DNA of 64,000 bases from Roseateles oligotrophus (GTDB taxonomy: Bacteria > Pseudomonadota > Gammaproteobacteria > Burkholderiales > Burkholderiaceae_C). Under the pieces are notes generated by a model that had not been told where the DNA came from, ran no database searches, and saw only the letters and a program-made list of their open reading frames with translations. The DNA is taken from positions 310,001-374,000 of the forward strand of contig NZ_JACHLP010000004.1 of the NCBI RefSeq assembly GCF_014204525.1. The letters are read 5' to 3'. The translations under genes and the position numbers were made by a program. Below, one piece after another: positions 61,892 through 64,000 of the stretch. How positions within the stretch are numbered: the stretch's first letter is position 1; each line of letters opens with the position of its first letter.

Positions 61892-63046
<1,155 letters not shown>

Positions 63047-63094
63047 GTGCGGTCTGTGAATTTGACGATGTGCGTTTGCCCAGGCCCATGCCGG

Positions 63095-63700
63095 GATTGC
63101 GGCCCGGCAGCCGCCTCACTTTCTTTGCTTCGCCAAAGAAAGTAAGCAAAGAAAGGCGACCCAGATGTCTGGCCCCTGCGGGGTTCGTTGCGGTGCTCAA
63201 ATTCCAGGGCTCGCGCAGAACTCACTTCGCTCGCTGGCGCTCGCTGCGTTCAGACAGCCGCGCGAAGCTAGAAGTTGAGGGCGCTGACGCGCCTGCCCTG
63301 GAATTTTCCGCTCCTCACCCAGACATATGGGACCGAACCCCGTCACGGCTCGCTGCGCGTCGCCTCGGTCAACAGCCGAACTGGCGTTCAGCGCGAAGCG
63401 CTGACACCTATCGAGGCGACGCGCAGCGAGCCGTGACCGAATTCCCCGTGTTGCCTGGGCGAGGAACGCAGAATTTGTCGGGCGTCGCGAAGCGACTTCC
63501 AGCACTGACTTCGCGCCCCTTGTTTGAGCGAAGTGAGCAAAGCGAACGAAGCGAGTTGGGCGCGGCCCGGCAAATTCGAGTACCGCAGCGGACCCCGCAG
63601 GGGCCAGGCATTCGGGGCGCTTTCTTTGCCTCCTTTCTTGTGCGCACAAGAAAGGAGGTCGCCCGCCGGGGCGAATTCCCGGCTGGGCCTGCCAAAGGTA
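63095..63700. repeat. Large nested inverted-repeat block, no gene
   Basis: Concentric self-complementary arms fill this gap between the dehydrogenase and ligase genes: 63169-63203 with 63572-63607 (imperfect), 63221-63232 with 63526-63537 (12 of 12) and 63342-63367 with 63412-63437 (26 of 26), around an inner 7-base-pair hairpin at 63388-63404. The outer parts are hairpins made from AAAGAAAG-type sequence: 63118-63143 or 63119-63155, and a 30-base perfect palindrome at 63629-63658. The open frames inside are byproducts of the symmetry and have no gene-like start. Confidence 0.86.
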
Positions 63701-63749
63701 TCCCAACTCATTTTGGTCAGCCAACTATTCAAAGACTGGGGCATGCGCC

Positions 63750-64000
63750 ATGACCTACACCGCCCATCTCGACACCTTCGCCCGCGACAGCCTGCCACCG
63801 CCCGAGCAGTGGCCCGAGCTGATCTTCGAGCTGCCGGAGCTGCAATTCCCCGAGCGCCTGAACTGCGCCAGCGAGCTGCTGGACGCCTGGGTGGCGAGCG
63901 GGCAGGGCGATCGCCTGTGCATCCAGGGTGTCGATGTGAGCTGGACTTATGCGCAGCTGCAGGCCCAGGCTAACGCCATCGCCCATGTGCTGGTCGAGGA
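63750..64000 (+). CDS. 2-aminobenzoate-CoA ligase, N-terminal part (cut by window edge)
   Basis: The first 83 residues of an AMP-binding acyl-CoA synthetase are present; the gene runs off the right edge. MTYTAHLDTFARDSLPP, LPELQFPERLNCASELLD and the start of an ANL domain (VSWTYAQLQAQANAIAHVL) resemble 2-aminobenzoate- and benzoate-CoA ligases. It would activate anthranilate, feeding the monooxygenase/reductase at 57148. The catalytic motifs lie beyond the window, so substrate specificity rests on context. Confidence 0.85.
   Translation, partial: MTYTAHLDTFARDSLPPPEQWPELIFELPELQFPERLNCASELLDAWVASGQGDRLCIQGVDVSWTYAQLQAQANAIAHVLVE

Follow-up and report, generated by a model that had tools for sequence, protein, structure and literature searches.

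We show here that the block between the acyl-CoA dehydrogenase and acyl-CoA ligase genes of Roseateles oligotrophus is a real non-coding DNA element of about 600 bases that folds back on itself. With a probability of roughly 60%, we regard it as a closed member, devoid of cargo, of a family of palindrome-armed cassettes. Members of this family are dispersed, occupy sites that are empty in relatives as well as sites that are inherited, enclose differing cargo between their arms and have arms that are mosaic. The window is the whole stretch of 64,000 nucleotides that was analysed, and the genome from which it comes is called G000; other genomes and loci carry handles of the same kind where they have to be told apart.

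Architecture of the element and its spread

The element spans positions 63083-63689 of the window, no strand being assigned to it or to its parts. Family members align over this span and the arms pair end to end. Upstream lies the acyl-CoA dehydrogenase gene (61892-63046, plus strand; PF00441, PF02770, PF02771), and downstream the gene of an AMP-binding acyl-CoA ligase (63750-64000, plus strand), which is cut by the window end and shows PF00501 on its continuation in L001. The sequence-only reading had set the limits of the block at 63095-63700; the core of this assignment stood, while its left edge gave way to the outermost arms, which widen the element to about 63083-63689. By comparison with other copies these arms are GGCCCATGCCGGG... 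on the left (63083-63115, with a small stem of its own, GCCGGG at 63090-63095 and CCCGGC at 63103-63108) and ...CCCGGCTGGGCC on the right (63659-63689). The concentric arms, the central stem and the hairpins at both ends were all recovered as proposed. The left end hairpin (63115-63155) has two mutually exclusive pairings, 63115-63127/63134-63146 or 63119-63130/63144-63155, in which CTTTCTTTGC pairs with either of two GCAAAG/AAAGAAAG copies; the right end hairpin (63629-63658) is a perfect 15+15. Between them, the left main arm (63153-63235) pairs with the right main arm (63541-63623) over 83 nt with 77% complementarity, and a further pair of arms is complementary in 12 of 12 positions (63221-63232/63526-63537). 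The longest perfect central pairing is a stem of 26 bp, found exactly where it had been placed (63342-63367 with 63412-63437), and it closes on a 44-nt loop (63368-63411), at the equivalent position of which other family members hold cargo genes. Folded as RNA, positions 63080-63720 reach a predicted -413 kcal/mol, compared to -267 +/- 6.6 for shuffled sequences (z = -22), and 0 of 20 shuffles was as good.

A mobile non-coding element had been among the first suggestions for this block, with copies at other loci in both orientations named as support and the lack of any second copy as refutation. A DNA search of the own genome gave 36 matches. As a palindrome is hit on either strand, these amount to about 18 places; copies are found in both orientations. 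Eight of the places hold full-length copies, seven hold copies of about half length, which are deletion derivatives, and three hold fragments. Two of the fragments lie at contig ends (L024 at the end of G000:C8, L028 at the end of G000:C6), so that two contigs end inside the element; short-read assemblies are thus broken by it and copies may be undercounted. The closed form is the only form seen in this genome. One own copy, L026 (G000:C5:264590-264748), is truncated beside the end of an IS3-type transposase. Another, a half-copy (L013 1400-1560), lies directly behind a rho-independent terminator between convergent genes, and this terminator is also present in element-free relatives.

Fifteen genomes of the genus have the junction of dehydrogenase and ligase genes. 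Three of them carry the element (G000, G008 and G015), with a gap of 700-709 bp between the two genes, and 12 of the 15 do not; in those of the 12 with a measured junction the genes overlap or lie at most about 50 bp apart (about 100 bp in G010). Where the listing was on the minus strand, spacing was taken from the coordinates of both genes, and the four such cases are comparably short. In a tree of the dehydrogenase G000 pairs with G004, which is Paucibacter sp. KBW04 (100% identical over 8 kb) and of the same genus, and G008 pairs with G015. Since G004, the sister of G000, is without the window copy, the copy was either lost from it or acquired repeatedly. Four more own sites (L008, L009, L013 and L015) have counterparts free of the element in G004, G008 or G015, and junctions compared to empty sites are ragged. 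Terminal inverted repeats of about 38 bp (TAGTGCAGTGTTTGATTCTTG...) bound three copies of 817-822 bp (L002 1353-2174, L003 1354-2170 and L005 1353-2170) and are found at one end only in five further copies; none were detected at the window copy. L002 and L003 are 96% identical, and L002, L003 and L005 are probably the youngest insertions. TA or CTAG adjoins several element ends, and no unambiguous target-site duplication was found at the ends. The roughly 18 sites, the insertion missing from most relatives and the terminal repeats of some copies support the suggestion of a mobile non-coding element.

How the family was dispersed can be approached from these ends. The youngest-looking copies carry the terminal repeats, several of which adjoin TA or CTAG, and we therefore infer that the family may first have spread by transposition in trans, via these repeats and a putative transposase. 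A transposase flanked by the terminal inverted repeats of the element was not encountered in the about 0.85 Mb of the own genome scanned. Y1 transposases (PF01797) are present in 18 of 18 genomes with or without elements, and for want of any correlation a RAYT was rejected as the mover. G017 has 31 Y1-transposase matches, mostly contig-end fragments, and other genomes of the genus have 1-4.

The family extends well beyond the genus. Among the matches listed, the exact motif of the left end hairpin occurs in more than 116 betaproteobacterial stretches, from genera including Herbaspirillum, Undibacterium, Collimonas, Variovorax, Curvibacter, Silvimonas and Neisseria. Many of these stretches are closed palindromes of 500-780 bp, and ten that were checked, among them stretches from genera further away (Undibacterium, Silvimonas, Herminiimonas), showed no obvious cargo, a point against the cassette reading. 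Plasmid matches number only three and are short and partial, and phage sequences gave no match to the element. At loci L187-L266 the end hairpin translates to FFASPKKVSKERRPR-like open reading frames, which annotations of betaproteobacterial genomes may list as hypothetical proteins. A description of the palindromic family was not found in the literature searched, which comprised open-licence papers.

Different cargo at the same sites

In sister species the arms, about 280 bp each, often lie 0.4-2.2 kb apart and typically enclose one gene, rarely two or three. All 12 full arms of G005 form six inverted pairs, five of which hold 0.47-1.66 kb with a gene, and ten arms of G003 form five pairs, four of them with cargo, while two more arms lie at contig ends. 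Two further cargo pairs are present in G020, from another genus of the bacterial family. The interior has a GC content of 0.516, compared to 0.640 in the flanks and 0.641 in the arms, and is the lower one in 17 of 17 cases (p = 1.5e-5). Cargo types comprise bSEFIR/TIR, PDC-S14 (GIY-YIG-like/DUF4357), a weak TIR effector, PIN, GNAT, tautomerase, Ivy-like inhibitor, DUF4440 and DUF488/DUF4326 proteins and several orphans. Two anti-phage defence models, bSEFIR (E 1e-76) and PDC-S14 (E 1e-105), recognise cargo genes at L070 2943-3788 and L064 2691-3674. Elsewhere in the genus, homologues of four cargo genes lack such arms at their sides. In many cargo segments (L062, L063, L068, L070, L087) a second palindrome, GGGTCAGGTCTTGCC...GACCTGACCC or GGGTCAGGTCTTGCC...GACCTGACCCC, marks the inner ends, and its GGGTCAGGTCTTGCC...GACCTGACCCC form presumably resembles the REPs of Y1 transposases. 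A palindrome that seemed common downstream of the cargo in L061, L074 and L088 turned out to be shared only in part.

Common sites were found by an all-against-all comparison of flanks with the arms masked, and at four of them (A, B, C and I) the genes differ between relatives. Site A lies upstream of a gene for biotin carboxylase and has arms in at least ten species and six mutually unrelated cargos in seven of them: the proteins of G003, G005, G006, G012 and G001 are mutually unrelated, and a GNAT protein is common to G015 and G007, where a single arm is left. At the same site G000 shows arms and no cargo, whereas arms are lacking in G002, G011 and G014, where the site measures about 121-133 bp. 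Site B holds DUF488/DUF4326 genes in G003 and a TIR/SEFIR gene in G005, i.e. unrelated cargos, with flanks that are 93-95% and arms that are 82-100% identical, and identity drops at the inner ends of the arms. At site C a lipoprotein is common to G003 and G005, and G006 has another gene. Site I holds a TIR-like effector in G005 and a different gene with a damaged arm in G003. As a clean empty counterpart of the G005 locus L069, G003 was discarded, having a different cargo plus a damaged arm. The window copy itself is a mosaic. Its left half is 95-96% identical to the same-site copies of G015 and G008; its right half reaches 82-83% against same-site copies and 86-87% against copies elsewhere, indicating that the arms of different copies recombine or convert.

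The cargo is what speaks against an ordinary non-autonomous palindromic repeat, that is MITE- or REP-like selfish DNA in which the genes between the arms are chance passengers, inserted or trapped there, and the arms play no part in exchange. Dispersed copies and empty sites are expected of such a repeat, three copies have terminal inverted repeats, and the closed form is alone in the own genome and dominant in distant genera. However, most elements of G003 and G005 have cargo, always between both arms and always AT-richer, and the cargo at the same site differs between close species. Moreover, either side of the cargo is occupied by one arm and not by a whole palindrome, so that these loci are not composites of two complete elements. 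We therefore consider chance passengers unlikely, if still a serious contender.

For the palindrome-armed cassettes we suggest instead that the arms act as standing landing pads. Recombination within the arms would replace, add or remove the segment between them, and the site would persist. Such recombination appears feasible because arms are about 75-97% alike across sites and species; candidate routes are an exchange with incoming DNA that depends on RecA, or a template switch at the hairpin. Exchange of cargo in this way would agree with the mosaic arms and the sharp inner boundaries, and neither an exchange event nor one cargo moving between sites was observed directly. If the arms work as sockets, single genes, including defence genes, could be swapped at fixed neutral sites by an integrase-free system, and the conserved end hairpin would serve as a sequence handle for finding small orphan and defence genes.

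Maintained pairing, integrons and the reading frame

Base pairing of the element is maintained. Across 16 aligned copies, standard pairs occupy 96.9% of cells and both sides have changed in 29 of 161 pairs. This compensatory count was reached by 0 of 500 shuffles, and slid structures give 3-10, a comparison that is inflated as the structure was taken from the same alignment as tested. Much of the compensatory change sits in the local end hairpins, with 5 of 12 pairs in the left (helix 3) and 7 of 14 in the right one (helix 18); the outermost left arm (helix 2) is paired in 100% of cells and has one compensatory change. Long palindromes are usually held to be unstable in bacteria, and a large conserved betaproteobacterial family raises the question of how they are tolerated and why their pairing is kept.

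A functional RNA or regulatory structure, such as an RNase III site, a transcription attenuator or an mRNA stabiliser between dehydrogenase and ligase, would fit the very stable predicted fold, the compensatory changes and the intra-operon location, bordered on either side by a translational overlap. The compensatory changes can, however, reflect structure selection, palindrome-templated correction or arm-to-arm conversion alike. Besides, most copies lie outside the operon and the same operon of most species is without the element, and an Rfam search of the block gave no family at its gathering cut-off and miRNA matches by chance only. A role of this kind is hence quite improbable as the explanation of the family.

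The cargo resembles that of integrons, consisting of single small AT-richer genes such as GNAT, TIR and lipoproteins, and an integron integrase scores above cut-off in 13 of 18 genomes of the genus. Cassettes moved by a resident integron integrase are nonetheless a very remote explanation. No attC was found in any of 20 cargo loci (0/20), although the same scan, a simple search for paired R and L boxes, detects single attC candidates near integrases of the genus, and an integron origin of the cargo was discarded on this ground. Also, the arms are inverted and not head-to-tail, the sites are scattered, and the closed form persists regardless of an integrase in the genome. Chromosomal integron integrases are found at G000:C5:345419-346363 and in 12 other genomes of the genus, not adjacent to most elements; in G013, G016 and G017 an integrase or a fragment is no more than about 4 kb away from site A.

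An open reading frame of 236 codons (63043-63753, plus strand) runs through the element and overlaps the stop of the dehydrogenase (ATGA) and the start of the ligase (ATGA). The sequence-only reading had held that a conserved protein encoded across the block would refute it. That the block encodes a real protein, in this frame or in reverse-strand frames, is hardly credible: no stop interrupts the forward frame in G000, G008 or G015, the three species that have the insertion, and its start codons overlap the dehydrogenase stop, but its dN/dS of 0.88-0.99 equals that of the other frames and indicates no purifying selection, other aligned copies have stops in all six frames, and a Pfam search with six open reading frames of the block gave no match. 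The conserved-protein reading was dropped on these grounds. Selective keeping of the open frame is doubtful, as single-base indels shift it in the middle and it would stay open by chance with a probability of 0.05-0.11. A read-through frame in a catabolic operon may still limit polarity on the ligase gene.

Relation to known systems

The element is non-coding, dispersed and present in many similar copies, as MITEs are. Similar to the Correia elements of Neisseria, it is a dispersed, non-coding inverted repeat with empty counterparts, and some copies have terminal repeats. Unlike Correia elements, it measures 600-860 bp, has nested full-length palindromic arms that enclose different genes in relatives, and comes with no matching transposase in the part of the genome scanned and no clear target duplication that we could find. 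Mobile insertion cassettes of Xanthomonas, which belong to the Tn3 family, also hold passenger genes between inverted repeats and lack a transposase of their own. Their repeats are short transposon ends, whereas the arms described here are about 280 bp long, structured, and persist at the site as the cargo differs. With integron gene cassettes the family has in common single, diverse, AT-richer genes (acetyltransferases, defence) that are bounded by folding sequences, in contrast to which no attC was found in its cargo loci, its arms are inverted and its sites are scattered.

Rickettsia palindromic elements, as far as they are summarised in the citing paper PMC10969869, are about 150 bp long, lie inside genes and are read through as open frames; measured against that summary, the present element differs in lying between two genes and in having a frame that is not conserved at the protein level. 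REP/BIME sequences with their RAYTs are extragenic palindromes at gene ends, and the GGGTCAGGTCTTGCC...GACCTGACCC palindrome at the inner ends of many cassettes recalls them. However, REPs are 20-40 bp long (PMC2817692, PMC3733652), while the element described here has 600 bp and is not tracked by Y1 transposases. Minimal mobile elements and repeat arrays of Neisseria carry different genes at the same spot across strains, and their exchange has been attributed to homologous recombination in the flanks (PMC3898611). Different genes at the same site in relatives are likewise found here. The flanks of minimal mobile elements are unique conserved genes, in contrast to the dispersed family of inverted palindromic repeats that flanks the cargo at many sites in our case. 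Viewed alone, the element represents a variant of palindromic mobile repeats already known; its novel part is the cassette behaviour, the pattern of which is well supported and the mechanism less so. We tentatively suggest, at somewhat less than even odds, that these cassettes constitute a new class of modular gene platform, in which single foreign genes, anti-phage defence genes among them, would be exchanged at fixed chromosomal sites between inverted, hairpin-bearing arms by means other than a recombinase of its own, and of which the window copy would be an empty example.
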